Positions 1-32,786 of a stretch of 58,669 nucleotides of DNA are shown here, one piece after another. Position numbers and translations under genes: made by a program. Numbering within the stretch: position 1 is the first letter of the stretch; each line of letters begins with the position of its first letter. Below the pieces are notes generated by a model, which worked only from the letters and a program-made list of their open reading frames with translations, ran no database searches and was not told the origin of the DNA. Origin of the DNA: Actinomycetota bacterium. GTDB taxonomy: Bacteria; Actinomycetota; Aquicultoria; Aquicultorales; Aquicultoraceae. The stretch is from assembly GCA_018333515.1 (NCBI GenBank), contig JAGXSZ010000016.1, forward strand, positions 1 to 58,669, read 5' to 3'.

Positions 1-743
1 CCGCCGGCTTTCGGTCCGACCGCCAAGAACGACGCGACCGGCACGGGCGCCCCCTCGTAGACGTCCGGCGCCCAGAAATGGAACGGTACCGCTGCGACCT
101 TAAAGCCGAGACCGACGACTATCATCACCATTCCGACGAGCAAGAGCGGTTGGATTGCCTGTCCGGCAAGCGCATCCGCTATCGCCGTAAAATTAGTCTG
201 CCCGGTCAAGCCGTACACTAGCGACATGCCGTAGAGCAAGATAACCGACGCGACAAGACCGAGCAAGAAATATTTGAGCGCCGCTTCGGCGGAGCCGGCC
301 GTCTTTTTGCTGCCGACCAGAATGTACGCCGGCAAAACCGTCAGCTCCAGCGCGATAAAGAGCATGATGAGGTCGGTCGCCGACGCCATAAACATAGTTC
401 CCAGAACCGAGAAGAGCATCATGCTGTAGAACTCGCCTTCCCCGATCGTCGTACGCGAACGGAGCGTCGCCAGGACGACCAGAGCGGTTGTGACAAGTAA
501 TATCCCTTTAAGAACCGTAGCCGTAAGGCCGATTGAGAACATGCCCATGAACTCAGTGGCTTCGACCCCGTAGAGCGTGGTGAGGCTAAAAAGCGCGGCT
601 GCTATGCCCAACAGGCTGAACCCACCAAGCATGCGTTTTCCGTTCGCCGATAGGTACATCTCTCCCAGCAACACGGCTATCGCGACGCCAAAGATTATTA
701 GTTCCGGCATTATGTTATTCCACTCGATTTGCATCAAATTCAT
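1..743 (-). CDS. nuoN: NADH-quinone oxidoreductase subunit N (partial)
   Basis: Membrane subunit of respiratory complex I, one of the three antiporter-like proton-translocating subunits. The visible 247 codons are the N-terminal half; the reading frame stays open to the window edge, so the C-terminus lies outside. Reading from the ATG at 743, the protein begins MNLMQIEWNN and continues as a series of hydrophobic helices. It contains the antiporter-family motifs VGSKKTAGSAEAALKYFLLG and FKVAAVPFHFWAPDVYEGAP, which are diagnostic of NuoN/NuoM/NuoL; the position after nuoM and the family-specific wording favour NuoN. The start lies one base past the nuoM stop, so it is translated as the last subunit of the operon, as in most bacterial nuo clusters. 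Confidence 0.95.
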   Translation of the reverse strand, partial: MNLMQIEWNNIMPELIIFGVAIAVLLGEMYLSANGKRMLGGFSLLGIAAALFSLTTLYGVEATEFMGMFSIGLTATVLKGILLVTTALVVLATLRSRTTIGEGEFYSMMLFSVLGTMFMASATDLIMLFIALELTVLPAYILVGSKKTAGSAEAALKYFLLGLVASVILLYGMSLVYGLTGQTNFTAIADALAGQAIQPLLLVGMVMIVVGLGFKVAAVPFHFWAPDVYEGAPVPVASFLAVGPKAG

Positions 744-744
744 C

Positions 745-2211
745 CTAGCTACCTCTTATCATTTGTAATACTGTGCTCACCGCGGGATCGATATATTGGA
801 GCAACGGCTTCGGATAGACGCCGAAAACGATGATCAGCGCCACCAGCGGCATCAGGCTCATAAACTCGCGCCCGTTCATATCTTTAAAATCTTCCATAGA
901 AGTCGGCGGCAAGCCATAGAACGCATTCTGAACCGCCCGCAAGAGGTAGAACGCACCCAGAGCGAGCGTCAGCACACCGAGAATAGTGTAGACCTTGTAC
1001 GCTTCGTAGGAGCCGAGCAGGACAAGAAACTCTCCGACGAAGCCGCTCAAACCCGGCAGACCCAGCGAAGCCAGCGACGCGAAGATAAACATCCCGCCGA
1101 GAATCGGTATCTTTAACGAGAGTCCGCCGAGCTTGGCGATGTCTCTCGTGTGGGTCCTCTCATAGATGTAGCCGACGACCAAGAAGAGCATGCCCGTTAT
1201 CAACCCGTGGTTTACCATCTGCAGAACCGCGCCGTTAATAGAGACCTGCGTCAGCGCGGCCAAGCCGAGCATAACGTAACCCATGTGGCTGACGCTCGAA
1301 TAAGCGACCAGCTTCTTGAGGTCGCTCTGCGATAAAGCGGCATACGCCCCATAGACGATACTGATCGCCGCGAGTACCGCTATATACGGCGCAAACTCTA
1401 CAAACTCACCGGGCATTATCTGCATGAGGACCCTGACAAACCCATAGGTTCCCATCTTAAGAAGAATACCCGCAAGGAGTACGCTGCCCGCGGTCGGAGC
1501 TTGGACGTGAGCGTCGGGCAACCAGGTATGGAACGGCCACATCGGCACCTTCACGGCAAAACCCAGAAAGAACGTCGCGAAGATAAAGGTCGATAAGGAG
1601 TGCGTATATCCCGACTGCATCAATGCGACCATATCGAAGGTGTTCAGCCCGGAAGTGAAGTATAGCGCCAAGATACCGACGAGCATGAGAACGCTCCCGG
1701 CTAGCGTGTATAGGAAGAACTTGAGAGCCGCGTAATTGCGATTCTCGCCGCCCCAGATACCGATTATGAAGTACATCGGGATAAGGACGATCTCCCAGAA
1801 GACGTAGAACAAAATAAAGTCGAGTGCGACAAAGGTGCCGAGCATGCCCACTGCGAGTAGTAATAGCAAGCTAAAATACTCCCTGACCCGCTCCTTTATA
1901 GACCATGATGCCAAAACCGCTATCACCATCAGCACCAGCGTCAATAAGAACAGCGGCATACTCAACCCGTCCAAGCCAAGGTGGTAAGATATGCCGAGGC
2001 CCGGCACCCAGACTTGCTTCTCTACAAACTGCATCGCCGATTGGCCGGCCGTGAAATCCGTCAGAATCGGGATGCTTAAGACGAGTCCGGCCAGAGTTGT
2101 GATAAGCGCGATGCCGCGAATTAAATTCGCCTTTTCGCGCGGCACAAACTGCAAGAGCAGCGCTCCCAGCAGAGGCAAGAAAACGATTATTGACAGTATT
2201 GGATAGTCCAT
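745..2211 (-). CDS. nuoM: NADH-quinone oxidoreductase subunit M
   Basis: Antiporter-like proton-pumping subunit of complex I, 488 residues, the usual length. About fourteen hydrophobic helices are visible. The conserved family segment (VKVPMWPFHTWLPDAHVQAP, near residue 220) and the following AGILLKMGTYGF are classic NuoM sequence, and SDLKKLVAYSSVSHMGY is the antiporter-family lysine helix. The ATG at 2211 is preceded by a purine-rich AAGGGCGTGAAGGA. The gene is tightly packed between nuoL and nuoN on the same strand. Confidence 0.97.
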   Translation of the reverse strand: MDYPILSIIVFLPLLGALLLQFVPREKANLIRGIALITTLAGLVLSIPILTDFTAGQSAMQFVEKQVWVPGLGISYHLGLDGLSMPLFLLTLVLMVIAVLASWSIKERVREYFSLLLLLAVGMLGTFVALDFILFYVFWEIVLIPMYFIIGIWGGENRNYAALKFFLYTLAGSVLMLVGILALYFTSGLNTFDMVALMQSGYTHSLSTFIFATFFLGFAVKVPMWPFHTWLPDAHVQAPTAGSVLLAGILLKMGTYGFVRVLMQIMPGEFVEFAPYIAVLAAISIVYGAYAALSQSDLKKLVAYSSVSHMGYVMLGLAALTQVSINGAVLQMVNHGLITGMLFLVVGYIYERTHTRDIAKLGGLSLKIPILGGMFIFASLASLGLPGLSGFVGEFLVLLGSYEAYKVYTILGVLTLALGAFYLLRAVQNAFYGLPPTSMEDFKDMNGREFMSLMPLVALIIVFGVYPKPLLQYIDPAVSTVLQMIRGS

Positions 2212-2260: not shown

Positions 2261-4096
2261 TTAAAACAACTCCATTGCCCGGAACGACCAGATTATCAAA
2301 ACGACGACACTTACCACCATGACCAGCGCATAGTTCTGCGCATAACCGGTCTGCACATACTTCAGGCCGCCGCCGATTCGCGCTGTGGCCTTAGCGACAC
2401 CGTTGACGGCGCCGTCGATTACCTTCTGGTCGAAGGTTAAGACATACCTCGCGATCGCATGTGTCGGCCTCACGAGTGTAAACTCATAGATTTCGTCGAT
2501 ATAGTAGTTGTTTACCAGAAGCTTGTAGACGATATTGTTCTTGCTTAACACATTAGACGGGAGCAAGTTTGTCGAGTATTTCAACCATGCGCCGAATATT
2601 CCGAGCACGGCTACTCCGATGGAGAGCCCCATAACCATGTAGTTGGTATGATGCTCGAATCCGCCTCCCAAAATAAACGACTGGTATGCGTAGCCCGTAA
2701 ACGGTGAACCGAGCAAGCCCGTGCTGAGCGCCAATACAGCCAGCAAGATCAACGGGACGGCCATCACAGCCGGCGACTCGTGGACGTGGTCCGCGTGGTG
2801 TCCTCTCGCTTTTCCAAAGAAGACCACGAATATCAGCCTGAAAGTGTAGAACGCCGTAAAGAGCGCCGTCAAAAGCCCAATCGCAAAGATGCCCATGTAC
2901 CCGCCGTCGAACGCCCCCAACAAAATCTCGTCCTTGCTCCAAAAGCCGCTGAACGGCGGGATTCCCGCAAGCGCGAGCCCTCCGATGACAAACGTCAGCG
3001 AGGTTATCTTCATCTTACGGCTCAAACCGCCCATGTCGAAAATCTCCTGGCTGTGGACTGCGTGGATGACGCTGCCCGCGCCCAAAAAGAGGAGCGCTTT
3101 GAAGAAAGCATGGTTCATCAGGTGGAACGTTCCCGCCGCGAACGCGCCGACACCGAGACCCATCATCATATATCCAAGCTGGCTGACTGTCGAGTAAGCC
3201 AGTATCTTCTTAATATCGGTCGCCGTCAATGCGATTGTCGCGGCCATAAACGCCGTTATCGTCCCTATAATCGCGACGAACTCCATTGCGGCCGGGCCTT
3301 GCTCGAAGAGCGGATAAGCACGGGCGACCAGATAGACGCCGGCGGCGACCATGGTAGCCGCGTGAATGAGCGCGCTGACCGGTGTCGGACCCTCCATGGC
3401 GTCAGGCAACCAAACATGGAGTGGAAACTGCGCCGATTTTCCGATAGCTCCGAAGAAGAAGAGTATCGCTATGAGCGACGCGGTCTCCGGCGCGAATTTC
3501 ATCGCGAAGACCTGGCTCATATCTAGCGTTCCGGCCGTTAAAAAGAGAATAATCAAGCCGATTGCAAAGCCGAGGTCGCCGACTCTCGTAACCATAAAGG
3601 CCTTCTTGGCGGCGTTGCTCGCGCTCCGTTTTTCGAACCAAAAACCGACCAGCAGATACGAAAAGAGACCTACGCCTTCCCAGGCCATGTACATCTGGAC
3701 AAAGTTCGGAGAAAAGACGAGCAACAGCATCGACGCGGTAAACATCGACAGACACGCGTAAAACCAACCATACCGTTTGTCACCGTGCATGTATCCTACT
3801 GAAAATAGCTGTACAAGCAAGCTGACAAACGTTACAACGACCAGCATCATGCCGGCTAGCGGGTCCAACAACAGACCAAAGGTCAGCTCCAGGTCGCCGA
3901 CGGTCAGCCAGGTAAACGTCAAATCGGCACGAGCGCCTCCCATAACATCCAGGAGCGCTTTTACCGACAGCCCAAACGCGGTACCGACAGCCAAGATGCT
4001 TAAATACGCAGACTTATCCCCAAGCCTCTTGCCGAAGACTACGAGCAATATAAAACTGAGTACGGGCAACAATACAATTAACGATAGGTAATCCAT
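2261..4096 (-). CDS. nuoL: NADH-quinone oxidoreductase subunit L
   Basis: Largest antiporter-like membrane subunit of complex I, 611 residues, including the C-terminal extension expected to form the long lateral helix along the membrane arm. Diagnostic motifs are MAWEGVGLFSYLLVGFWFEK near residue 138, SAQFPLHVWLPDAMEGPTPV near 215 and the following SALIHAATMVAAGVYL, all typical of NuoL. The ATG at 4096 follows a good AAGGGGA ribosome-binding site. A gap of about 50 bases separates it from nuoM. The C-terminal part is shorter and more variable than in E. coli NuoL, which is normal in anaerobes. Confidence 0.97.
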   Translation of the reverse strand: MDYLSLIVLLPVLSFILLVVFGKRLGDKSAYLSILAVGTAFGLSVKALLDVMGGARADLTFTWLTVGDLELTFGLLLDPLAGMMLVVVTFVSLLVQLFSVGYMHGDKRYGWFYACLSMFTASMLLLVFSPNFVQMYMAWEGVGLFSYLLVGFWFEKRSASNAAKKAFMVTRVGDLGFAIGLIILFLTAGTLDMSQVFAMKFAPETASLIAILFFFGAIGKSAQFPLHVWLPDAMEGPTPVSALIHAATMVAAGVYLVARAYPLFEQGPAAMEFVAIIGTITAFMAATIALTATDIKKILAYSTVSQLGYMMMGLGVGAFAAGTFHLMNHAFFKALLFLGAGSVIHAVHSQEIFDMGGLSRKMKITSLTFVIGGLALAGIPPFSGFWSKDEILLGAFDGGYMGIFAIGLLTALFTAFYTFRLIFVVFFGKARGHHADHVHESPAVMAVPLILLAVLALSTGLLGSPFTGYAYQSFILGGGFEHHTNYMVMGLSIGVAVLGIFGAWLKYSTNLLPSNVLSKNNIVYKLLVNNYYIDEIYEFTLVRPTHAIARYVLTFDQKVIDGAVNGVAKATARIGGGLKYVQTGYAQNYALVMVVSVVVLIIWSFRAMELF

Positions 4097-4111: not shown

Positions 4112-4420
4112 TTACCACCTAAAGATGTTGAACTGGTCAAGATTTACCGATTGCATATTTCGATAAATCATCAAAATCAAAGCCAAACCGACTGCGACTT
4201 CAGCCGCGCCGACGGCCATTACAAAAAGCGCGAAAATCTGCCCCGAGGCCTGCTCAGGCGCGATATACCTCGAAAACGCCACGAAATTGAGGTTTGCCGA
4301 GTTCAGCATTATTTCTACAGAGAGAAGCACCGCCACCGCGTTTCTTCGCAAAAGAACACCGGCCATACCGATAGCGAAGAGTACTCCGCTGAGTATCAAA
4401 TAGTAAGAGAGCGGTATCAT
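4112..4420 (-). CDS. nuoK: NADH-quinone oxidoreductase subunit K
   Basis: Small membrane subunit of complex I (MrpC-like), 102 residues with three transmembrane helices. The motif LLSVEIMLNSANLNFVAFSR in helix 2 carries the conserved membrane-embedded glutamate (E36 by count) needed for proton translocation, and a second acidic residue sits in VGAAEVAVGLALI. The start overlaps the nuoJ stop by four bases (ATGA) and has a GGAGGGAA ribosome-binding site, indicating translational coupling with nuoJ. Confidence 0.97.
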   Translation of the reverse strand: MIPLSYYLILSGVLFAIGMAGVLLRRNAVAVLLSVEIMLNSANLNFVAFSRYIAPEQASGQIFALFVMAVGAAEVAVGLALILMIYRNMQSVNLDQFNIFRW

Positions 4421-4923
4421 TTCCCTCCCTCCTCTCGCGCTATAATAACAGCGCCGATCAATGCCGCCAGCAGCAGAACCGATATGACCTCGAACGGAAG
4501 GATGTAATCTGTCATAAACATCCTTCCTATAAACGAAATCGTATCTTCCACCGGCGCTAACGCCGAAATCCTGAAAACAGTATCTTTAATGACGAATACG
4601 AGCAGCCCGACTAGACCAACGAGCGAGACAATCGTCACCCAGCGCTGCTCCATCGCCGAGGTCAGCCGCACATTCGTTAACTGCGCGGTGAGCATGATAC
4701 CGAAGAGCAGTACCACGACCACACCGCCGACATAGACGAAGACCTGCATGATGCCGATGAAGTCGGCGTTGAGCAGGAAAAAATATCCGGCGATCGATAG
4801 CAGGTACAGGCCTAAAAACATCGCGGCATGGAAGAGGTTTCTTCCCGTTACCACCAACACACCGCTGCCAACGGCTAAAACGGCTAGCGCGAAAAATATT
4901 ACATGCGAGACAATATCGTTCAT
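4417..4923 (-). CDS. nuoJ: NADH-quinone oxidoreductase subunit J
   Basis: Membrane subunit of complex I, 168 residues with five predicted helices. The segment FHAAMFLGLYLLSIAGYFFL followed by ADFIGIMQVFVYVGGVVVVLLFGIML is the hallmark of NuoJ, including the helix with the pi-bulge near the E-channel. The C-terminus ends VIIAREEGGK, also typical. The gene starts four bases after the stop of the unusual nuoI fusion and overlaps nuoK by four bases. Confidence 0.96.
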   Translation of the reverse strand: MNDIVSHVIFFALAVLAVGSGVLVVTGRNLFHAAMFLGLYLLSIAGYFFLLNADFIGIMQVFVYVGGVVVVLLFGIMLTAQLTNVRLTSAMEQRWVTIVSLVGLVGLLVFVIKDTVFRISALAPVEDTISFIGRMFMTDYILPFEVISVLLLAALIGAVIIAREEGGK

Positions 4924-4927
4924 ATCA

Positions 4928-6895
4928 CTACTCCCTGGACCGGCTCATATCCGTAGTCTCATATCGAAGGACATGCTCTTTATCGTAAAAGAGCCGTTCC
5001 TTAACATATTCCGCGTTTTCGAAGTCCTTACTCATCTCAAGCGCATCGGTCGGGCAAATCTCCGCGCAGAACCCGCAATACATACACTTCGTCAGGTCAA
5101 GGTCGTAGCTGACGACTCTTCGCTCGGTCTCCGTTGGGGCGGTTCGATTTACATCTATGCAATACATCGGGCACGTTCTCGCGCACATGGTGCATCCGCT
5201 ACAAATCCCGGTATTACAGACAAGGCACCGATTCGCCTCGCGCACTGCTTCCTCTTCCTTGAATCCAAGCTCTACCTCGTTAAAACCTTGTAGTCTCTCT
5301 TCGAGCGAGAGCATATCCATGTGGATCCGGCGATGCTCGGGTTCGGCCCAACCTAAGAAGCCTTGCGGATAGGTCGACCCTGTCGGCATAATCCGCGGCG
5401 TTCTGCCCTCTGCCAAATCGACTCCTTTGAAATACCTGTCGAGCGACTCGACAGCTTCGTGGCCGCTTGCTATCGCTTCAATCGCGGCCCCCGCCCCCGT
5501 GACAACCTCGCCGGCGACAAAAACTTTTTTGTTCGAGGTCTGAAGCGACAACTTGTCATAGACGATAACGCCCCGTTCAGTTAGCTCAATATCGCTTCCC
5601 GCCAGAAAGTCAAGTTCTGTCATTTGTCCGATTGCCGTCACGACAGTATCTACCTCAAGGACGAACTCGCTGCCCGGAATCGGCTCGGGACGCCGCCGGC
5701 CGGAAGCATCCGCCTCACCCAGGCCCATGCGTATGCATTCGAGGCCTGCTACTTTTCCATTTTCCACCACGACCCGCGTCGGGTTTGTGAGAAGTTCGAA
5801 AATGACGCCCTCCTCCTCCGACTCGTGAATCTCCTCAAACCGCGCCGGCATCTCGGTCTTACCGCGCCGATATACCAGATAGACCTCTTCCGCCCCTAAT
5901 CTAATAGATGTTCTCGCGCCGTCCATAGCGACGTTTCCACCCCCGACCACCGCTACCTTCTTGCCGATAGTGGGATTCTGCTCCAGGTTCATCGCGCGGA
6001 GCAGATCGAGGCAACCCCAAACACCTTCGGCATCCTCGCCTTCGATGCCGAGGTCCCATGACCCGGGAAGCCCGGTAGCAATCAAAACGGCGTCATATGA
6101 AGCGATGAGGTCGCTAAAGGTGATGTCTTTTCCTACCTCAACGTTCTTCTTCAGTTCGACACCGAGTGAACAGATCGACTCGACATCCCACTTAAGAACG
6201 TCCTTCGGCAACCTGTATTTAGGTATTCCCGTAAGAAGTGTGCCGCCGCCCTCTGGGTTCTTATCGTATATGGTCACGCTGTGACCTAGCTTAGCCAGCC
6301 CCTGAGCTGCTGTCAGCCCGGCCGGCCCGCCGCCTATAATCGCTATCTTCTTATCCGAGGTCTTCGGGATCGGAGCCGGGTGCGGCAACCCTCTACAAGC
6401 ATCCGCCGCGAACCGTTTGAGGTCACGTATCGATATCGCCTCATCAAAGTAGTTTCTGCGACACCCTTCTTCGCACGGCCGCGTACAGACCCGCCCTATC
6501 GACGCGGGCATCGAGCATCTCTCTCGAATAAGGTCGAGCGCCTCTTTATGCCTGCCCTTCCCTATCAGCTCTACATAGCCGCGCGCATCGACATGCGCGG
6601 GACACGAGAAGACACATGGCGGTAGCAGATCCTCGTCTTGCCTCTGCTCGATGGTCCTGTTGAACTCACCGATAATGTTGGGAAATTTCTCGACCGTTGT
6701 CGTCTCGACCATAACATCGTTCAACTTCGGCGTGCCGCGATACCGCTCGGCTAATTGCGGTTTCTCGTACGGATATAGCATTGTCGGCATAGGATGCCGC
6801 TTCAGCCTCTTGTCGATGATCTTTTGCACGGTGATCCTGTGCCCAGTGAATATGCTCATCCATGCTTCTATGAAGTCTGTTACACGTCCGGCCAT
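4928..6895 (-). CDS. nuoI: NuoI interrupted by a GltD-like FAD/NAD(P)H oxidoreductase
   Basis: A 655-residue chimera in the place of nuoI. Residues 1-60 resemble the NuoI N-terminus (membrane-associated helix, then LYPYEKPQLAERYRG). Residues about 90-490 are a complete flavoprotein of the GltD/NfnB type: an N-terminal iron-sulfur region (C94, C98, C137, C141, C145), FAD fold GGGPAG at 188-193, NAD(P)H fold VVGGGNVAMD at 316-325 followed by YRRGKTEMPA, and a C-terminal FAD contact at VFVAGEVVTG. Residues 565-645 are the NuoI ferredoxin domain with two 4Fe-4S motifs (C565/568/571/575 and C604/607/610/614) and the NuoI ending AEYVKERLFYDKEHVL. The ATG at 6895 is preferred over TTG at 6904 because AAAAGG lies nine bases upstream. 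The inferred role is feeding NAD(P)H electrons directly into the complex I iron-sulfur chain, since nuoEFG are missing. The YRR residues suggest NADPH, but that is untested. Confidence 0.85.
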   Translation of the reverse strand: MAGRVTDFIEAWMSIFTGHRITVQKIIDKRLKRHPMPTMLYPYEKPQLAERYRGTPKLNDVMVETTTVEKFPNIIGEFNRTIEQRQDEDLLPPCVFSCPAHVDARGYVELIGKGRHKEALDLIRERCSMPASIGRVCTRPCEEGCRRNYFDEAISIRDLKRFAADACRGLPHPAPIPKTSDKKIAIIGGGPAGLTAAQGLAKLGHSVTIYDKNPEGGGTLLTGIPKYRLPKDVLKWDVESICSLGVELKKNVEVGKDITFSDLIASYDAVLIATGLPGSWDLGIEGEDAEGVWGCLDLLRAMNLEQNPTIGKKVAVVGGGNVAMDGARTSIRLGAEEVYLVYRRGKTEMPARFEEIHESEEEGVIFELLTNPTRVVVENGKVAGLECIRMGLGEADASGRRRPEPIPGSEFVLEVDTVVTAIGQMTELDFLAGSDIELTERGVIVYDKLSLQTSNKKVFVAGEVVTGAGAAIEAIASGHEAVESLDRYFKGVDLAEGRTPRIMPTGSTYPQGFLGWAEPEHRRIHMDMLSLEERLQGFNEVELGFKEEEAVREANRCLVCNTGICSGCTMCARTCPMYCIDVNRTAPTETERRVVSYDLDLTKCMYCGFCAEICPTDALEMSKDFENAEYVKERLFYDKEHVLRYETTDMSRSRE

Positions 6896-6992: not shown

Positions 6993-8000
6993 TTAAATTG
7001 ACATTACAATTCCGGTTATCAAGATATTGAGCAATGCGAGCGGCAAGAGCACTTTCCAGCCCAAGTCCATTACCTGGTCGATACGGAAACGCGGTAAGGT
7101 CCAGCGCACCCACATTATTACAAAGATTATGCCGAAGAACTTGATAGCGAACCATATCGGAGCCAGGAACTCGGGGCCGGGTCCATGCCAACCACCGAGG
7201 AACAAGACTACGGTAAGCGCCGCCGCAGCGATAAGCGCTATATACTCCCCGAAAAGGAAGAACGCATATCGCATGCCGCTATATTCAGTGCTGTATCCGT
7301 GAACCAGCTCCGATTCGGTCTCCGGCAGATCGAACGGCACCCTGTTTATCTCCGCGAGGGTCGAGACGAAAAAGACCATAAATCCGATGGGCTGCAAGAA
7401 GATATACCACAAGCCCTGCGCGTCGACTATCGACGAAAGCTTAGTCGAGCCGACTATCATGACGATCCCGATGACCGATAGCGCTCGCGGCACTTCGTAA
7501 CTGACCATCTGAGCCGCCGCTCGAAGACCGCCCATCATCGCGTATTTATTATACGAGCCGAAGCCGGCCATTATTAATCCCGCTACGGCGATGGAGGGTA
7601 TAGCCAAAACATATAACAGCCCCACATTCAAGTCCTGAACGACCAGGCGCGGCCCTATCGGTATCGCCATAAGCCCGACGAAAGCCGATATGAATACCAG
7701 TGCCGGCGCGAGCCGGAAGAGCCAGCGGTCGGCATTCTTTGGAAAAACATCTTCCTTAGACAGCAATTTTATCATGTCGGCAATGAGCTGAAGCGTCCCG
7801 CGCGGCCCTACATGCGTGGGCCCTAAGCGCAGCTGGATGTCCGCGCTCACCTTGCGCTCCATGTAAACAAGGACGATTACGCCGAGTCCGCAAAGTGAGA
7901 AGACCGCCAAGGATAGCAGGAGCGCGATTGACGCGTCTAGCGCCCAAATCGGTATCCCGTTTCTAGTTGCGAATTCGAAAAGTTCCACGCTCGTCAGCAT
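6993..8000 (-). CDS. nuoH: NADH-quinone oxidoreductase subunit H
   Basis: Membrane subunit that links the quinone-binding cavity of complex I to the proton channels; 335 residues with eight to nine helices. Recognisable NuoH segments are YMERKVSADIQLRLGPTHVG near residue 46, QLIADMIKLLSKEDVFPKNA, EINRVPFDLPETESELVHGY near 216 and the late WVRWTLPRFRIDQVMDLGWK. The start codon overlaps the nuoCD stop (TAATG), with GAGGTGG upstream. About 97 bases separate its stop from the nuoI fusion, the longest gap inside the operon. Confidence 0.97.
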   Translation of the reverse strand: MLTSVELFEFATRNGIPIWALDASIALLLSLAVFSLCGLGVIVLVYMERKVSADIQLRLGPTHVGPRGTLQLIADMIKLLSKEDVFPKNADRWLFRLAPALVFISAFVGLMAIPIGPRLVVQDLNVGLLYVLAIPSIAVAGLIMAGFGSYNKYAMMGGLRAAAQMVSYEVPRALSVIGIVMIVGSTKLSSIVDAQGLWYIFLQPIGFMVFFVSTLAEINRVPFDLPETESELVHGYSTEYSGMRYAFFLFGEYIALIAAAALTVVLFLGGWHGPGPEFLAPIWFAIKFFGIIFVIMWVRWTLPRFRIDQVMDLGWKVLLPLALLNILITGIVMSI

Positions 8001-9715
8001 TAGCGATCCACCTCTCCAAAGACCGTATCAAGCGTTCCAAATATCAACACCGCGTCGCTGAAATAACAGCCCGTAGCCATCGCCGGCAAAGCCTGCAGGT
8101 TTCCGAAGCTCGGTCCCTGAATCTTGACACGGTACGGTTTCGGGCTCCCGTCGCTAACGATAAAGAAGCCTAAATCCCCCCTGCTCGATTCAATATGGGC
8201 ATACGCTTCACCCGGTGCCGGAGTAATGTAGCGCGGCAAATCCGGAGTGACGATTAGCCCATCCGGTATCTGCGCTACCGCCTGCTCGATGATTTTGAGG
8301 CTCTGCCGTATCTCTTGAGACCTTGCGATTACCCGGTCCAAGTTATCACCGTTGCATAGAACTACCTCATCGAAGTCGATGCGGGGATAGACCGAATACG
8401 GGTCCGCCTTGCGTACGTCATAATTGACGCCCGAAGCCCTTAGCGATGGACCGGTAAGACCCCAGCTCAACGCCTGCTCAGCAGAGAACGGCGCAACGCC
8501 TTTCATCCTCTTTTTGAATATATAGTTTCCGAGAAGGAGCTTGTCATAGTCGACCATGCTCTTTTCGAGCCGCTCGCAAAATGCGAGCACGTCATCGAAC
8601 CATCCTTCCGGGGCGTCGATTCTGACACCGCCGATTCTCATATAGTTATAGGTAAACCTTGCGCCACAGAGCTGCTCGAAGAGGAGTAATATCCGCTCGC
8701 GCTCATCGAAATAGTAAAAATATGGTGTCAACGCGCCCGTCTCTATCGCCGCCGTAGATAAAAACACCAGGTGCGAAGCGATACGGTTGAGTTCGCCGAC
8801 GATTATCCGCAAATACTCGGCTCGCTCCGGCACCGCGATCTCCGCCAGTTTCTCGACCGACATGGTATAGCCCCAATTGTTGAGCATGGCTGAGAGGTAG
8901 TCCATCCTATCGGTAAACGGGATAAACTGCGTATAAGTTCGGTGCTCGGCGATCTTTTCGAAACACCTATGCAAGTAACCGATGTGCGAATCTATCCGCG
9001 TGATTATCTCGCCGTCTACCTCGAACACGCCGCGAAAGACGCCATGCGCACTGGGATGTTGCGGTCCGAAATTAATCGTGAGGACATCGGTTTTGATGTC
9101 TTTTATAGCCCGCTCAAGCTCACTCGCGGCGGCGACGCCTGTCTCGTTTTCCGCTGCGACGGCTTGTTCGACCCGAGCCGACGGCTTCCCTGCGGCGGCG
9201 TCATCACCGGCCCGGCTATCGATTACTGAAAGCGGAGGCCGAGCGTACTTGTCACCGTCGCTGACGAGCATATGGTCATCGCTATAATCTTTGCGCAGCG
9301 GATAACCGACCCAATCCTCCGGCATAAAAATCCTGCGCAGGTCGGGATGTCCCTTAAACTCCACCCCGAACAAATCGTATGCCTCTCGTTCGTGCCAATT
9401 CGCTGCCGGCCACAAGGGCGCCATCGAATCGACAGCGGGGTCGCTCTTGGGCACGTCCGTTTTTACGATAATCGCCATTCGGTTCTTTCTCTTCGTCGAA
9501 TATATCCTGTAGACCAGTTTGATATGGTCCGGATAGTCCACTCCGGTAACAAAGAGAAAGAGGTCGAAGCCGGCCTCCTTGAGGCCTGTCGCCGTTTTGA
9601 GTAAATCCTCCCTCTCGACAGTAATCGTATACCCGAGACCTTCTTCTTGTACTATCATCCCTTTTCCCGGAATACCATCGATATTTGTTTCGTTCGCGTT
9701 AATGTCGTCACTCAT
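8000..9715 (-). CDS. nuoCD: Fused NADH-quinone oxidoreductase subunit C/D
   Basis: Fusion of the peripheral-arm subunits NuoC and NuoD, 571 residues. The NuoC part (about 20-150) contains WPAANWHEREAYDLFGVEFK and HPDLRRIFMPEDWVGYPLRK, the family signature. A low-complexity alanine- and glutamate-rich linker (about 155-205) joins it to NuoD. The NuoD part has NFGPQHPSAHGVFRGVFEVD, where the quinone-site histidine lies in the HPSAHG loop, then HIGYLHRCFEKIAEHRTYTQ and the C-terminal SRGDLGFFIVSDGSPKPYR. The fusion is known from several bacterial groups. The start overlaps nuoC's partner gene nuoB at the stop codon (TAATG). Confidence 0.96.
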   Translation of the reverse strand: MSDDINANETNIDGIPGKGMIVQEEGLGYTITVEREDLLKTATGLKEAGFDLFLFVTGVDYPDHIKLVYRIYSTKRKNRMAIIVKTDVPKSDPAVDSMAPLWPAANWHEREAYDLFGVEFKGHPDLRRIFMPEDWVGYPLRKDYSDDHMLVSDGDKYARPPLSVIDSRAGDDAAAGKPSARVEQAVAAENETGVAAASELERAIKDIKTDVLTINFGPQHPSAHGVFRGVFEVDGEIITRIDSHIGYLHRCFEKIAEHRTYTQFIPFTDRMDYLSAMLNNWGYTMSVEKLAEIAVPERAEYLRIIVGELNRIASHLVFLSTAAIETGALTPYFYYFDERERILLLFEQLCGARFTYNYMRIGGVRIDAPEGWFDDVLAFCERLEKSMVDYDKLLLGNYIFKKRMKGVAPFSAEQALSWGLTGPSLRASGVNYDVRKADPYSVYPRIDFDEVVLCNGDNLDRVIARSQEIRQSLKIIEQAVAQIPDGLIVTPDLPRYITPAPGEAYAHIESSRGDLGFFIVSDGSPKPYRVKIQGPSFGNLQALPAMATGCYFSDAVLIFGTLDTVFGEVDR

Positions 9716-10245
9716 TACTCGATCATTCCTCTGGCTATGATCTTTTCCTTAAGTTGCTCTATCCCGAACATGACGGCTTCAGGCCGCGGCGGGCATCCGG
9801 GGACATAAACATCGACCGGAATAATCTTATCGACCCCTCTGACCACGGTATAGCTATCATAGTAGAACGGCCCGCCGTTTATCGCGCAGCCCCCTATGGC
9901 CATGACATACCTTGGTTCGGGCATCTGCTCATATAAATGCTCTGTTATGTCCGCCATCTTATGTGTGAGAGTCCCCGCCACAAGCATTAGGTCGGACAGC
10001 CTGGGGGTGTTTCGCAGCAACCCGCCATGCCTATCCATATCGAAACGCGCCGTATTCAAGCACATCAACGATTCGATGGCGCAACAAGCAAGGCCAAACG
10101 CCATCCACCAAATCGAATTCTTGCGCGACCAATTCAGTAGGTCGCCGGCCTTGCCGAGGATTAAGCCGGTACCCGGCGCTTGCTCCTGTAATATGCCTGC
10201 CCTACAAGCCGGTTGCCGTATTATTTGCCCGTTCGTTAACTCCAC
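9715..10245 (-). CDS. nuoB: NADH-quinone oxidoreductase subunit B
   Basis: Peripheral-arm subunit that binds cluster N2, the last iron-sulfur centre before quinone. The N2 ligands are visible as the tandem cysteines in [15 protein letters not shown], the cysteine of [13 protein letters not shown] and that of [10 protein letters not shown]. Length is 176 residues, with a GTG start that overlaps the nuoA 3' end by ten bases. The stretch [19 protein letters not shown] replaces the shorter loop of proteobacterial NuoB; similar variants occur in other anaerobes, so it is not considered aberrant. Confidence 0.97.
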
Positions 10246-10595
10246 TTTAATACTCCTTTACGCCATGCATAGAGCAGGCCGATTAATAGAATCACAACAA
10301 AAATCAACATCTCGATTAAAGCGACCACACCCAGGCTACTAAAGACAACCGCCCACGAGAAGAGAAATATCATTTCGACGTCGAAGATAATAAGAAGAAG
10401 TCCGAAGATATAATAGCGCATTTTGATTTGTATGCGGGGGTCGCTCACAACGTCGATATTGCCACATTCGTAGACCGACAACTTCGCGTCGCTGTGCCTT
10501 TTCGTCTGAAGCAGTTTTTGTATCCCGAGCATCAGGACGACTACCATTAAGCCGACCGCGACAAAAACAGAAAAATAGATGATTTCGCTGACCAT
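10236..10595 (-). CDS. nuoA: NADH-quinone oxidoreductase subunit A
   Basis: Three-helix membrane subunit of complex I, 119 residues, and the first gene of the nuo operon. The signature [20 protein letters not shown] followed by [20 protein letters not shown] is diagnostic: it contains the conserved YECG loop that contacts the quinone cavity and the DVE acidic helix. The ATG at 10595 has GGGGAG eleven bases upstream. The nearly 300 bases upstream carry no convincing gene and should hold the operon promoter. Confidence 0.96.
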
Positions 10596-27395: not shown

Positions 27396-30300
27396 TTACA
27401 AACGCCCTCCGGAAATATCAAAGAACCGTTCAAAGAAGCGTGTCAATTTGCCCAAAACGCTCTCGCGCTTTTTGGAACGCTCTCCTCCGGGAGAAAAGCG
27501 TGACACCGGCGGCAAAGCTTTCGCTAAAGCGGTTCCTGTGGTTTCAACACTGCCGTTACGAAACGCGTTTCGCACAAATTTATAGGTTTCGTCGTGGTCA
27601 AGGTTTTCGTGCTTAATAATCTCTTCCAGTTCTTCAATCTTTTTCTTCTCCACATACTTCTGCCAGTCTTCATCCACGACCGAATGGATATCAAGCGAAG
27701 CGATAAACTGGTTGATAAGGTCTTTTTTGTTGCGCAGTTCAACGCTTGAGTCGATTGCCTTGTTAATGTCAACAAGCAGTTCGCGGTTCTTGATGTGGTC
27801 CTCGTGGTACTTTTTAACAAGCGCTAAAATATAATCAATATTGATCTCAATTTGTTTAATGAGCTCCATTTCAAACACGATATCATCGATGATATTTTCC
27901 TTTTCGCCTTCACCTGCCTTGCGAAATTCATTATAGAGGTCGATGTAGGCGCTGTGATAATCCTGAATGTCCCGCTCGGTTAAAATTTCATTACCGGCAA
28001 ATTCATCAAATGCAACCAGGATATTTCTCACCCGCAAAATCGCGCTATAGAGCCTGATGAAATCCTTTTGATTTTGTTCCCCAATAATCCGCTCGCCAAC
28101 TGGAAATTTATCCAACAGCTCTTGAACCAGACTGGCATAGCCGCGAACTTCTTTGTCGCCGTCTTTGTAGCCGTTGTAATACTCGTCATACGATTTTAAA
28201 AGCACAATCCCGCTGGCTTCTTTATCGCCAAAGAGGGCAATGGATTCATTGGTCGCTTTTTCCAGATTACGGAAGCAAACAATGTTTCCGAATGTCTTGA
28301 CGGTGTTTAAGATACGATTGGTGCGAGAATATGCCTGCAACAAACCATGTAAACGCAGATTTTTGTCCACCCACAAGGTATTGAGCGTCGTCGCGTCAAA
28401 GCCCGTCAGAAACATATTGACTACCAGCAGAATATCAACCTCACGGTTTTTCACCCGTTCGCTGACATCTTTATAGTAATTCTGAAATTTATCGGAAGAG
28501 GTGTCATACGAAGTCCCAAACATGGCGTTGTAGTCTTTGATGGCATTTTCGAGAAAATCCCTTGAACTTTTGTCCAACCCGCTGGTATCTTCGGAGTTTT
28601 CGTCTATGACGCCGTCGATTTCTTCATCGTTTACGCCAAAGCTGTAAATAAGCGCTATTTTGAGTTTTTTATCGCTTGGCACGTCTGCTAACTGTTTTGT
28701 GAATTCAGTATAGTATTTTTTTGCCACATCGATGGACGAAACGGCGAAAATAGAGTTAAAGCCCGATAATCGGATTTTCTCCATAATCCTTTCAACTTTG
28801 GATCTATCTTTTGCCGTCACAATCTCCTCAATATTTGTAGTAACACTATGGGTAAAAGATCTGTAATTCCGTTTCGTCTTCTGATTAAAGTGTTCCATGA
28901 TATACCGCACGATATTTTCTAATCGCTTCGGCGCCGCAAGCACTGCTTCCCGGTCGATGTCGCGCACTTTCTTGTCTTCGATGTCCTCGGCTTCGCGCAC
29001 GGTGGAAACATAATCCACTTTGAAAGGTAAAACATTCTTGTCGGCAATGGCGTCCACGATGGTGTATGTGTGCAATTTATCGCCAAAAGCCTGCTCGGTG
29101 GTCTTAAAATCAGGACGGCCTCCTGAAGGGGCATTCACAGCAAAGATCGGTGTTCCGGTAAAGCCGAAAAGATGGTAGTTTTTAAACGCTTTGGTAATGG
29201 CGGTGTGCATATCGCCGAATTGCGAGCGGTGGCATTCATCAAATATAAGCACGATATGGCCGTCAAAAATCGTATGTCCTTTATTCCGTCCGATGAACCG
29301 GTCGAGTTTTTGAATTGTTGTGATAATAATGCGCGCGTTGGGGTCTTCGAGCTGACGTTTTAATATCGCCGTACTTGTATTGCTGTTGGCCGCGCCTTTT
29401 GCAAACTTGTCGTATTCGCGCATGGTCTGGTAATCAAGGTCTTTACGGTCAACGACAAAAAGCACTTTATCAACATAGGGCAATTTACTTGCCAGTTGGG
29501 CGGTTTTGAAACTGGTCAGGGTCTTGCCCGAACCGGTTGTGTGCCAGATGTAACCGCCGGCCCCCACGGAGCCGAGTTTTTTGTAGTTGGTGCTGATTTC
29601 GATTTTATTCAGAATTTTCTCGGTTGCCACTATCTGATAAGGCCGCATCGCCAAAAGCTGTTTCTCAGTGGTAAACACGCAGTAGCGTGTGAGAATATTT
29701 AAAAGCGCGTGTTTGGCGAGAAAGGTTTTGGTAAAATCCACAAGGTCTGTAATGGGTCTATTGGTCGCGTCCGCCCACCAGCTCGTGAACTCAAAGCTGT
29801 TGCTGGAACGTTTGCCTTTCTTGACGGCACCTTCACTTGATTCTTTGATATGTTCCGAGCGCGTGGTGTTGCTGTAGTATTTGGTGTGTGTACCGTTGGA
29901 AACCACAAATAACTGCACATACTCGAAGAGTCCCGATCCGGCCCAAAAACTCTCGCGCTGGTAGCGGTTAATCTGATTAAACGCTTCCTGGATCGCTACC
30001 CCACGCCGTTTCAGCTCAATATGCACGAGCGGCAGGCCATTGACTAGAAGCGCTACATCGTAACGGTTCGCTCTTTGTCCTTCTTCGGTGGAGTATTGGT
30101 TGATAACCTGCAAGTTGTTTTCGTGTATCTTGTCTTTGCGGAGCAGATAGATATTTTTTACTGTTCCGTCATCCCGTTTTAGATTTTTGATGTAGTCTTC
30201 CTGAATGGTGGTCGTCTTCTCGGCAATACTCTGGTTGGGATTTGCAATCTCTCCGGTAAAAAACGACGCCCATTCTGCATCGGAAAAAGTGAAGCCGTTC

Positions 30301-30518
30301 AGCTTCTCCAGTTGTTTGCGCAAATTGAGAACCAAATCGGCTTCGGAAGTGATGGACAGATGCTCATACGCCTGTGACTCTAACTGCTCAATAAAAGCGC
30401 GCTCCAGTTCCGCCTCACTCTGATACGCTTTGGCGGTACGGTATTCGGCAGCGTATTCGGCCACCACCGTGCTTTGAGGATTTTCCGCTACAAGATTGTA
30501 TCTTTTATTGTTTGGCAT
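27396..30518 (-). CDS. hsdR: Type I restriction enzyme, R subunit
   Basis: ATP-dependent motor and nuclease subunit of a type I restriction enzyme, about 1040 residues. The start ATG at 30518 (MPNNKRYNLV) is chosen over upstream in-frame codons because it matches family starts and overlaps hsdS by only 14 bases. The nuclease motif is RYDVALLVNG with D154, then E168-x-K170 in HIELK and Q182-x3-Y186. Helicase motifs are TGSGKT near 328-333 and DECH at 427-430. The C-terminal helical region ends in a proline-rich segment (LPPVSRFSPGGE), as in related proteins. It acts with HsdM and HsdS to translocate and cut unmodified DNA. Confidence 0.95.
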   Translation of the reverse strand: MPNNKRYNLVAENPQSTVVAEYAAEYRTAKAYQSEAELERAFIEQLESQAYEHLSITSEADLVLNLRKQLEKLNGFTFSDAEWASFFTGEIANPNQSIAEKTTTIQEDYIKNLKRDDGTVKNIYLLRKDKIHENNLQVINQYSTEEGQRANRYDVALLVNGLPLVHIELKRRGVAIQEAFNQINRYQRESFWAGSGLFEYVQLFVVSNGTHTKYYSNTTRSEHIKESSEGAVKKGKRSSNSFEFTSWWADATNRPITDLVDFTKTFLAKHALLNILTRYCVFTTEKQLLAMRPYQIVATEKILNKIEISTNYKKLGSVGAGGYIWHTTGSGKTLTSFKTAQLASKLPYVDKVLFVVDRKDLDYQTMREYDKFAKGAANSNTSTAILKRQLEDPNARIIITTIQKLDRFIGRNKGHTIFDGHIVLIFDECHRSQFGDMHTAITKAFKNYHLFGFTGTPIFAVNAPSGGRPDFKTTEQAFGDKLHTYTIVDAIADKNVLPFKVDYVSTVREAEDIEDKKVRDIDREAVLAAPKRLENIVRYIMEHFNQKTKRNYRSFTHSVTTNIEEIVTAKDRSKVERIMEKIRLSGFNSIFAVSSIDVAKKYYTEFTKQLADVPSDKKLKIALIYSFGVNDEEIDGVIDENSEDTSGLDKSSRDFLENAIKDYNAMFGTSYDTSSDKFQNYYKDVSERVKNREVDILLVVNMFLTGFDATTLNTLWVDKNLRLHGLLQAYSRTNRILNTVKTFGNIVCFRNLEKATNESIALFGDKEASGIVLLKSYDEYYNGYKDGDKEVRGYASLVQELLDKFPVGERIIGEQNQKDFIRLYSAILRVRNILVAFDEFAGNEILTERDIQDYHSAYIDLYNEFRKAGEGEKENIIDDIVFEMELIKQIEINIDYILALVKKYHEDHIKNRELLVDINKAIDSSVELRNKKDLINQFIASLDIHSVVDEDWQKYVEKKKIEELEEIIKHENLDHDETYKFVRNAFRNGSVETTGTALAKALPPVSRFSPGGERSKKRESVLGKLTRFFERFFDISGGRL

Positions 30519-31686
30519 GTTCTTTTTCCAACGGTTTAAATGTGAGCAGCTTGTCCCGGTAATATTCGTATTGTTTGCGCCGTGCATTGAGTTCTGCCGG
30601 TAAGCCGGCTGATATATCATTAACCAGCGCATCGAATTTGTCGAGAATTGAAACGATTCGTTCTTGTTCAACGAGCGGTGGAACGGGGATATTGTATTTT
30701 AAGATAGCATCTTTATCCCCACGTGGCATTTTCGCTCCTTTTGCAAATTGCATATCGTAGTCAAAAAATTTATCAGAAGACAATAAAAAATATAGGAACC
30801 TCGGAATAAATCCTTCTTTATCTTCATCATTAATTCGAATAACAATAACATCCCCGTTTGTGCCTCCGTTGTTAGTAGACAACCATATTTTTTTAAGATA
30901 TGGTCGAATATTTCCAATAAGAACATCATTGATTTTATACTCAATTAAATTACCTGAAGTCGGTACATAGTTTGACTCAATTTTGCCTTGTTTGTTTTGT
31001 AATAAATTATCAACACCAACGTAGTTTGTATTATCAACACTATCAAATGATATTCGATTTTTTGGATAATGAACAACCTCCCCCAACGTCTTCCGCTCTA
31101 CACCCTCCCCAAACGTCAACAACTCATCCCGATAATATTCATATTGCTTCTTTCTTGCTTCTAGCTCTGCTTCTAGCTCTGCTTCTAGCTCTGTAAAGGT
31201 ATCCAGAATTTTCACAATCTCTTCTTGGGTTGCAAGGGGTATGATGGGAATTTTGATTTTCTCCATTGCATTACTCATGATTTTTGGGTTTCCCATTCCG
31301 GCGCTAACGTATTTTTTAGAAACTGTCGCTAAGATATATAAGAGGAACTTCGTATTTACACCGTCAACTTTAACTTTCAAAAGACCGCAAACATTTGTAA
31401 TGCTAAATTTACCCTTGCGGTAGAAAATTGAACCGGCGTTTGCTCCGTCAGTTGTCCATGTCAGGTATTCTCCGTCATAGTCGTAAGTATTGATGCGTCC
31501 AAAAACACCATCGTCGACTGTTTGAGATGAATACACCGGATACTCGCCAACATTATTTCTGAGGTAATCTTTTGACATGACTCTGCCACGATTGATTTGG
31601 CAGATTTCACCAATACTCTTTAACCCCACCCCTTCTGGGCAGAGCTCGGCGATCAGTTTTTCGACCTTATTCAATGATCTATTCAT
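30505..31686 (-). CDS. hsdS: Type I restriction enzyme specificity subunit
   Basis: Determines the bipartite DNA target of the type I enzyme; 393 residues. Two target-recognition domains (about 18-150 and 195-340) are each followed by a conserved helical spacer: ARKKQYEYYRDELLTF in the middle and ARRKQYEYYRDKLLTF at the end. The central spacer contains a three-copy ELEA repeat encoded by perfect 12-bp repeats. In known systems such as EcoR124, changes in central repeat number alter the distance between half-sites. The gene overlaps rhuM by four bases (ATGA) and hsdR by 14. Confidence 0.93.
   Translation of the reverse strand: MNRSLNKVEKLIAELCPEGVGLKSIGEICQINRGRVMSKDYLRNNVGEYPVYSSQTVDDGVFGRINTYDYDGEYLTWTTDGANAGSIFYRKGKFSITNVCGLLKVKVDGVNTKFLLYILATVSKKYVSAGMGNPKIMSNAMEKIKIPIIPLATQEEIVKILDTFTELEAELEAELEARKKQYEYYRDELLTFGEGVERKTLGEVVHYPKNRISFDSVDNTNYVGVDNLLQNKQGKIESNYVPTSGNLIEYKINDVLIGNIRPYLKKIWLSTNNGGTNGDVIVIRINDEDKEGFIPRFLYFLLSSDKFFDYDMQFAKGAKMPRGDKDAILKYNIPVPPLVEQERIVSILDKFDALVNDISAGLPAELNARRKQYEYYRDKLLTFKPLEKEHAKQ
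31157..31192 (-). repeat. Three 12-bp tandem repeats in hsdS
   Basis: Three perfect copies of GCTTCTAGCTCT (plus strand), coding for three ELEA units in the central spacer of HsdS. The repeat length is a multiple of three, so copy-number change would lengthen or shorten the spacer without a frameshift. Confidence 0.95.
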
Positions 31687-32786
31687 GATGATCTTCCTGA
31701 TTCAGGATCTTGTTTAGTTGACTTTTTTCCGCTCTCCAGTCTTTTTTCCATTTCATGAAAATCATCCGACGAGATAAACCGGTCAAAGTCGCTTTCAAAA
31801 ACACCATCCTGCGTGATGCGGTATTTTTCGAATTCACTTTCTGCGAACTCTTTGGCTAGTTCATGGGATATTTTCCCGCTGTCGCGAAGCACTTCACGAT
31901 CGGTCATGACGATAAATCTGTCCAGACGCTCTTCCCAGTCACTCATCGTCATAGGGATTTTTCGCACTGCCATATCTTCAGCAATATCCAGATATGCCGA
32001 AACGATGCGCTCCAGACCTGCAAGCTCAATTTTTTTGAGATAATTCTTCGCGATTGACACATCAAATTTTTGTATTTTCCCTTCTGGAGCGTCTTTCCAA
32101 GTAGTTAATCCCATGTGTTCCTTATCAGCACTTGCCCGTGCTGCAATCACCTCGGCCGCCGTCTGCCCATGAATCGCCCAATGCAGTTTATTTTGCACAG
32201 TAGCAAAAAAACGTTTCGTGGATTCGGCTGTATAATCATAATCAATCGCCGTAGCATAAATATCTGTAATTTTTTGATAAAATTTTCTTTCCGAAAGCCG
32301 AATCTCGCGGATACGGGTTAATAATTCCTCAAAAAATTGCTTGGATAAAATACTCCCGCCTTGTTTCAGGCGATCATCATCCATCGCGAAGCCCTTGATG
32401 GTGTAGTCTTTAACAATTTCCCTCGCCCACTTACGAAACTGGACCGCCCGCTCGTTTTCTATTTTAAAACCGACAGAGATAATCGCTTGAAGATTGTAAT
32501 GCACGGTATCGTAGTTCTTACCATCAGAGGCAGTTATTAAGTATCGCTTAATAACTGAATTATTCAACTCGCTGTCATTAAAAAGTTTTTTAATATGCTG
32601 ATTTATAGCGGAAACGCTCACCCCGTACAATTCCGCCATCATTTTCTGCGTCATCCAGATATTTTCATTCTCGTACCGCAGTTCAATACTTTGCCGACTA
32701 TCACCTACTGCCGAGATATATGTGAGGTATTCAGCCGCAGAAGAACGGGCAAGCTGTTTCTTTGAAGGTTTCTTTACATCTTTCAT
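31683..32786 (-). CDS. rhuM: RhuM-family protein
   Basis: A 367-residue protein of the RhuM (virulence-associated) family, commonly found inside type I restriction loci; its molecular role is not established. The N-terminal part carries a helix-turn-helix-like segment (MTQKMMAELYGVSVSAINQH, about 45-64) followed by LFNDSELNNSVIKRYLITAS and YNLQAIISVGFKIENERAVQ, which are family landmarks. The C-terminal half is helical. It is coupled at both ends: its ATG overlaps the hsdM stop (TAATG) and its stop overlaps the hsdS start. Confidence 0.88.
   Translation of the reverse strand: MKDVKKPSKKQLARSSAAEYLTYISAVGDSRQSIELRYENENIWMTQKMMAELYGVSVSAINQHIKKLFNDSELNNSVIKRYLITASDGKNYDTVHYNLQAIISVGFKIENERAVQFRKWAREIVKDYTIKGFAMDDDRLKQGGSILSKQFFEELLTRIREIRLSERKFYQKITDIYATAIDYDYTAESTKRFFATVQNKLHWAIHGQTAAEVIAARASADKEHMGLTTWKDAPEGKIQKFDVSIAKNYLKKIELAGLERIVSAYLDIAEDMAVRKIPMTMSDWEERLDRFIVMTDREVLRDSGKISHELAKEFAESEFEKYRITQDGVFESDFDRFISSDDFHEMEKRLESGKKSTKQDPESGRSS

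Follow-up and report, generated by a model that had tools for sequence, protein, structure and literature searches.

A GltD/StnC-type flavoprotein module inserted into NuoI of an 11-subunit complex I in Actinomycetota

Described systems and the nuo locus

The closest described system is the 11-subunit complex I, for example that of Desulfitobacterium hafniense, which is encoded by nuoABCDHIJKLMN without nuoEFG and whose electron donor is left unresolved in the literature; a search for one common donor of such enzymes failed, and ferredoxin has been proposed, among others (PMC11238625). The canonical 14-subunit enzyme takes in electrons through FMN/NuoF. In the Campylobacterota, NuoEF is replaced by another input, NuoXY, which is encoded by separate genes and has flavodoxin or ferredoxin as donor (PMC6682613).

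Among flavoproteins, NfnB and GltD (PDB 4ylf, 5jca, 2vdc) carry a Fer4_20 domain together with FAD- and NADPH-binding Rossmann domains. In StnC of the Sporomusa Stn transhydrogenase (PDB 8oh5), cryo-EM shows a path from NADPH to FAD, to a Lys-ligated (K170) proximal cluster and along a cluster chain with steps of 9-18 Å, and the FAD is described as non-bifurcating (PMC10482914). In the NAD(P)-binding protein PRK12771 (NF009410), a two-cluster ferredoxin domain comes after a permuted GltD.

In the window (the whole stretch of 58,669 nucleotides analysed), a nuo operon on the minus strand reads from right to left nuoA, nuoB, nuoCD, nuoH, a fusion gene, nuoJ, nuoK, nuoL, nuoM and nuoN:

10236..10595, minus strand: nuoA (PF00507)
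9715..10245, minus strand: nuoB, with CC...GGC...PGC ligands for N2 (PF01058; N2 pattern from the translation)
8000..9715, minus strand: fused nuoCD (PF00329 and PF00346)
6993..8000, minus strand: nuoH (PF00146)
4928-6895, minus strand: NuoI-GltD fusion ORF, 655 aa, between nuoH and nuoJ
4417..4923, minus strand: nuoJ (gene order and homology to nuoJ of relatives)
4112..4420, minus strand: nuoK (gene order and homology)
2261..4096, minus strand: nuoL (PF00361, PF00662)
745..2211, minus strand: nuoM (PF00361)
3..743, minus strand: nuoN, cut by the contig end (open frame; relatives have a full-length nuoN after nuoM)

NuoC and NuoD form a single ORF here (window 8000-9715), whereas G002 and G003, both close relatives, encode them separately.

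The gene set is that of an 11-subunit complex I, with NuoA-D and NuoH-N, no NuoEFG, and NuoB and NuoD of the quinone type. The core, the ligands of N6a, N6b and N2 and the expected quinone reduction are shared with the 14-subunit enzyme. In contrast, the NuoE and NuoF that define the latter are absent: the genome of the window (completeness 100) has no match to PF01512 (NuoF-like) or PF01257 (NuoE-like), and there is no nuoG in the operon. In place of the FMN/NuoF input stands a GltD-type FAD module, and it is this putative NAD(P)H-oxidising flavoprotein, covalently inserted in NuoI, that separates the fusion from the described 11-subunit enzymes. The genome contains no stand-alone NuoI-like gene, its best NuoI match being the fusion gene. 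The claim of the initial annotation that the usual NADH module has been replaced is supported by these results. The genome also encodes MqnC (above the cut-off) and an adjoining gene of the MqnA/D family; therefore, menaquinone is the likely electron acceptor.

The fused gene and its insertion site

The minus-strand frame is open to 4928 from either TTG 6904 or ATG 6895, while the plus strand carries many stops across 4928-6895. ATG 6895 appears to be the better start: the sequence AAAAGG lies 9 nt upstream of it and directly adjoins TTG 6904, and the start residue of the relatives is that of ATG 6895. Residues are numbered here in the resulting 655-residue form, as follows:

6689..6895, minus strand: NuoI N-terminal segment, residues 1-69 (amphipathic helix, YPYEKPQLAERYRG motif)
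5210..6688, minus strand: inserted GltD/StnC-type flavoprotein module, residues 70-562 (gap between two NuoI alignments; Fer4_20 and Pyr_redox_2)
6395..6622, minus strand: Fer4_20 subdomain, residues 92-167 (PF14691; C94, C98, C137, C141, C145, K160)
5462..6349, minus strand: FAD- and NAD(P)-binding Rossmann domains, residues 183-478 (PF07992, E 6.4e-33)
5864..5872, minus strand: YRR motif, residues 342-344, after the second Rossmann fold (predicted contact to the NADPH 2'-phosphate)
5210..5332, minus strand: permuted segment, residues 522-562, with the CxxC C557/C560 (aligns to Thermotoga NfnB 3-44)
4928..5209, minus strand: NuoI two-[4Fe-4S] domain (N6a/N6b), residues 563-655 (TIGR01971, 83 bits; 56% identical to short NuoI)

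The initial annotation had read one frame of 655 residues at 4928-6895 as a NuoI N-terminus, an FAD/NAD(P)H module and the NuoI ferredoxin domain; coordinates and length were borne out, the strand is minus, and Pfam, NCBIfam and BLASTP all agree with the domain order. In Pfam, Fer4_20 (E 2.7e-21; 75.9 bits, gathering score 25.8) and Pyr_redox_2 (E 6.4e-33; 114.9 bits, gathering score 26.1) are both above threshold, and Fer4_7 matches at E 4.5e-8. The NCBIfam NuoI model TIGR01971 matches 78 C-terminal residues (E 9.8e-24); its score of 83.3 bits comes from the C-terminal half only and falls below the curated 113.05 bits because the insert splits the NuoI profile. None of the 25 best NCBIfam models is above its own cut-off on the fusion, and PRK12771 scores 488.6, below its cut-off of 516. 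As expected of NuoI, the protein has an N-terminal helix, the YPxEK...RxRG segment, the slot between nuoH and nuoJ, and eight cysteines in two CxxCxxCxxxCP motifs, which are invariant in 21 fusions. The best PDB matches of the inserted module are 9bov_A, 9n5u_A and 8oh5_C, and 4ylf_B and 5jca_L are matched as well; each half of the fusion has relatives, and no PDB chain among the 60 matches listed covers both.

Uninterrupted short nuoI genes occupy the matching operon slot in G001 of the same genus (163 aa) and in G005 (168 aa) and G008 (159 aa) of the same family. The BLASTP alignment of the fusion with G001 NuoI consists of two blocks, 1-69 to 1-65 (54% identity over the 69 residues) and 563-644 to 66-147. 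The insert thus comprises residues 70-562, that is 493 residues, and its site lies exactly between residues 65 and 66 of the short NuoI. By this direct comparison with uninterrupted alleles in the operon of close relatives, the flavoprotein is clearly to be read as inserted into NuoI, as had been proposed at first. Two MAGs that are 90% identical have fusions of equal length. Comparison of the fusion gene revealed no indels and changes concentrated at third codon positions, and dN/dS is 0.07 over the whole gene and 0.055 in the GltD part, indicating purifying selection.

PRK12771 differs from the fusion in having no NuoI N-terminus and a ferredoxin domain that is not NuoI. That the C-terminal ferredoxin domain of the fusion is of the PRK12771 type was ruled out: the PRK12771-type paralog of the window's genome (C30) has no NuoI match at 1e-20, and the fusion has one. 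Another GltD-like gene of this genome, of the StnC/formate dehydrogenase type (NuoG-GltD-FdhA; G000:C19:4449-6923, L055), encodes a StnC-like protein with a NuoG-type N-terminus, a GltD module and the start of a formate dehydrogenase alpha subunit, and is a probable NADPH-linked formate dehydrogenase.

Cluster ligands, nucleotide and electron route

The GltD module contains seven cysteines. The initial annotation had mentioned its own iron-sulfur cysteines, which is correct for the five before the FAD domain (C94, C98, C137, C141, C145) and incomplete in that the CxxC pair C557/C560 follows that domain. Residues 522-562 align to residues 3-44 of Thermotoga NfnB; the CxxC segment, which is N-terminal in NfnB and GltD, is C-terminal here, and on this alignment the inserted module is of a circularly permuted, StnC type. 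The possibility that one cluster of the module was lost, suggested by the lack of a CxxC before C94, was ruled out by the same alignment, the CxxC being permuted C-terminally. Together with the N6a/N6b ligands (C565, C568, C571, C575, C604, C607, C610, C614) there are 15 cluster cysteines, 14 of which, C560 included, are invariant in all 21 fusions; C557 is present in 20 of the 21, with Ser in G011.

By homology to dihydropyrimidine dehydrogenase and StnC, we take C98, C137, C141 and K160 to ligate the proximal cluster, and C94, C145, C557 and C560 the distal one. In the alignment to 8oh5_C, K160 and R228 correspond to StnC K170 and R239; one subgroup of fusions has His at the position of the lysine. 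The fusion thus resembles StnC in the permuted GltD, the predicted Lys-ligated FAD-proximal cluster, the NADPH motif and the downstream cluster chain. It differs in that StnC feeds the bifurcating unit StnAB, whereas the chain of the fusion would end in NuoI of a proton pump: there is no FdhF-like C-terminal domain, and the operon consists of nuo genes only, without StnA or StnB partners.

C560, a predicted distal-cluster ligand, lies five residues before C565, the first ligand of N6a; therefore, the C-alpha distance between them is at most about 19 Å, which is an upper bound and not a measurement of the gap between the clusters. From sequence alone, this spacing supports the earlier suggestion that oxidation is wired onto the complex I core. 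An AlphaFold model built from only three sequences (the window and two 90% relatives) had a pLDDT of 29 and was not used.

With respect to the nucleotide, the residue table of 21 fusions has YRR after the second Rossmann fold in the window's subgroup and in G037, G021, G026 and G033. The motif is also present in NfnB and StnC, which use NADPH. A preference for NADPH, hinted at earlier from this motif, is therefore plausible for the window's organism, where the whole subgroup keeps YRR, but it does not extend to the fusions in general. In G016, G018, G013, G075, G264 and G155/185/204, (C/M)LE stands in place of YRR and His in place of K160, and G011 combines CLE with Lys at the K160 position. 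Because an acidic residue at the YRR position usually means NAD, fusions of both the NADPH and the NADH type probably exist, and the acidic-LE subgroup may use NADH, as is predicted for G185.

We consider it probable that the fusion is the NuoI of an 11-subunit complex I in which an inserted GltD/StnC-type NAD(P)H dehydrogenase replaces the missing NuoEFG arm and passes electrons from NAD(P)H to menaquinone with proton pumping. A hydride from NAD(P)H, which in this organism is probably NADPH, would pass to FAD, from which single electrons would move on to the proximal [4Fe-4S] cluster, the distal cluster, N6a and N6b of NuoI, N2 in NuoB and finally menaquinone, whose reduction would drive pumping by NuoH and NuoLMN. 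If this is true, NADPH is probably what feeds this proton-pumping complex I in some lineages, through a flavoprotein that is unrelated to NuoF, and the fusion would be an example of how complex I swaps input modules. The carriers are little-studied anaerobic actinobacteria, and for them the fusion would answer what feeds the stripped-down complex I, with the donor site encoded within the NuoI subunit itself, at a testable place.

The same chain might mainly run in reverse, with the proton motive force or a low-potential donor delivering electrons through NuoI to the GltD module to make NADPH for CO2 fixation. Complex I is reversible in principle, relatives of these bacteria are credited with anaerobic CO2-fixing pathways, and the NADPH motif is present. 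However, the operon holds no gene for a low-potential donor, and nothing in the sequence sets the direction; this alternative is judged unlikely.

Distribution, module exchange and other readings

The initial annotation had proposed a search for the domain order across genomes. A junction model comprising the NuoI N-terminus and Fer4_20 was searched in 396 Actinomycetota genomes and in 195 genomes of one other phylum. Both halves of the junction are present in 25 of the 396 (12 family codes; E ≤ 5.5e-43), in all of which the NuoI N-terminal segment is conserved; the next match (4e-37) covers the GltD half only. In the 195 genomes of the other phylum, no match starts before model position 44 and none covers the NuoI N-terminus. 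Operon maps place nuo genes around the fusions, and no correlation is evident between the fusion and the presence of other NuoF-like genes. No description of the NuoI-GltD architecture was found in the literature searched, which did not include subscription papers, so that an earlier description is possible.

One carrier of the fusion is probably Parvivirga, G185 being probably Parvivirga hydrogeniphila. The published genome analysis gives its locus as NuoACDHJKLM, with no NuoI among the subunits, and regards donors other than NADH as likely, an annotation that the fusion would correct; quinones went undetected in Parvivirga, which counts against the proposed NAD(P)H:menaquinone route if G185 is Parvivirga (PMC9686372).

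Among the GltD paralogs that these genomes encode, the AU test rejects a single clade of fused GltD modules (p 7e-6). The modules form three or four groups: the Aquicultor family; G037 with G021/26/33; G016/18/13/75/264 with the f55 family; and G011. A single origin of the inserted module is thereby ruled out, while one insertion followed by replacements is still compatible. Therefore, the modules were acquired or exchanged more than once, either by repeated insertion at one site or by replacement of the inserted module by others.

Exchange is also apparent in G001. Between G001 and G002, NuoK, L and M are 97-100% identical, and NuoB, C, D, H and NuoI 54-79%. The NuoI tree keeps short and fused alleles apart (95/93), and the AU test rejects a grouping of G001 with its congeners (p 5e-5). 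In contrast, the NuoJKLM tree places G001 inside its genus (100/100) and has no fused/short split. The NuoABCDH tree places G001 outside its genus, yet grouping with the genus is not rejected (p 0.07). These trees argue that NuoI is exchanged as a cassette, probably along with the whole peripheral-arm block. Along the G001 operon (L098), identity to congeners drops sharply between NuoI and NuoJ, with values to G002 of 100% for NuoK, 79% for NuoH and 65% for NuoB.

More tentatively, NuoI may act as a socket that received or swapped GltD-type dehydrogenases, always at one site, on three or more occasions within the Actinomycetota. Some lineages would in this way have obtained dedicated proton-pumping NADPH:menaquinone oxidoreductases and others enzymes of this kind that use NADH, with complex I changing its donor by domain insertion.

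Within one genus, G052 (L104:5611-7122) and G066 (C9) keep the fusion in a shortened frame. The G052 protein of 503 aa lacks the greater part of the NAD(P)-binding Rossmann region but retains the cluster cysteines. Since G001, G005 and G008 have no module and G052 and G066 shortened ones, the core can use other donors, and these operons count against the proposed route through the inserted module. They also suggest that the enzyme can do without NAD(P)H as input, as would be the case if ferredoxin, binding NuoI directly, were the real donor and the module a side branch or structural remnant. Ferredoxin has indeed been proposed for 11-subunit enzymes (PMC11238625, PMC9686372). However, purifying selection preserves the cluster cysteines and the motifs for FAD and NAD(P) in most fusions, and the module was acquired or refreshed more than once, so that ferredoxin is unlikely to be the real donor.

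The GltD fold is the bifurcating fold of NfnB (matches 4ylf_B, 5jca_L), and the FAD might accordingly send part of the electrons from NADPH to NuoI and part to a soluble carrier. The proximal-cluster ligand is, however, Lys or His and not the Glu of NfnB, StnC with its Lys is described as non-bifurcating (PMC10482914), and the operon has no NfnA-like gene; an Nfn-like bifurcating complex I is thus very improbable. Finally, frameshifts and assembly artefacts had been a concern of the initial annotation. That two genes were joined artificially in this way, or through a chimeric contig, finds no support in the window, and a split frame occurs in G023 alone; the junction common to 25 genomes, the short alleles, the equal length in the two MAGs, the absence of indels, the third-position changes and the low dN/dS exclude it for practical purposes.

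Downstream of nuoK, the complex I operons of G033, G021 and G026 (L045, L046 and L047) have four or five antiporter-like ORFs, one of them resembling NuoM, where three are usual; a higher pumping stoichiometry is possible. The G052 operon has four antiporter-like genes (L-M-L-N). Elsewhere in the window, positions 27396-34369 encode hsdR, hsdS and hsdM of a type I restriction-modification system, and a gene of the RhuM family separates hsdS from hsdM.
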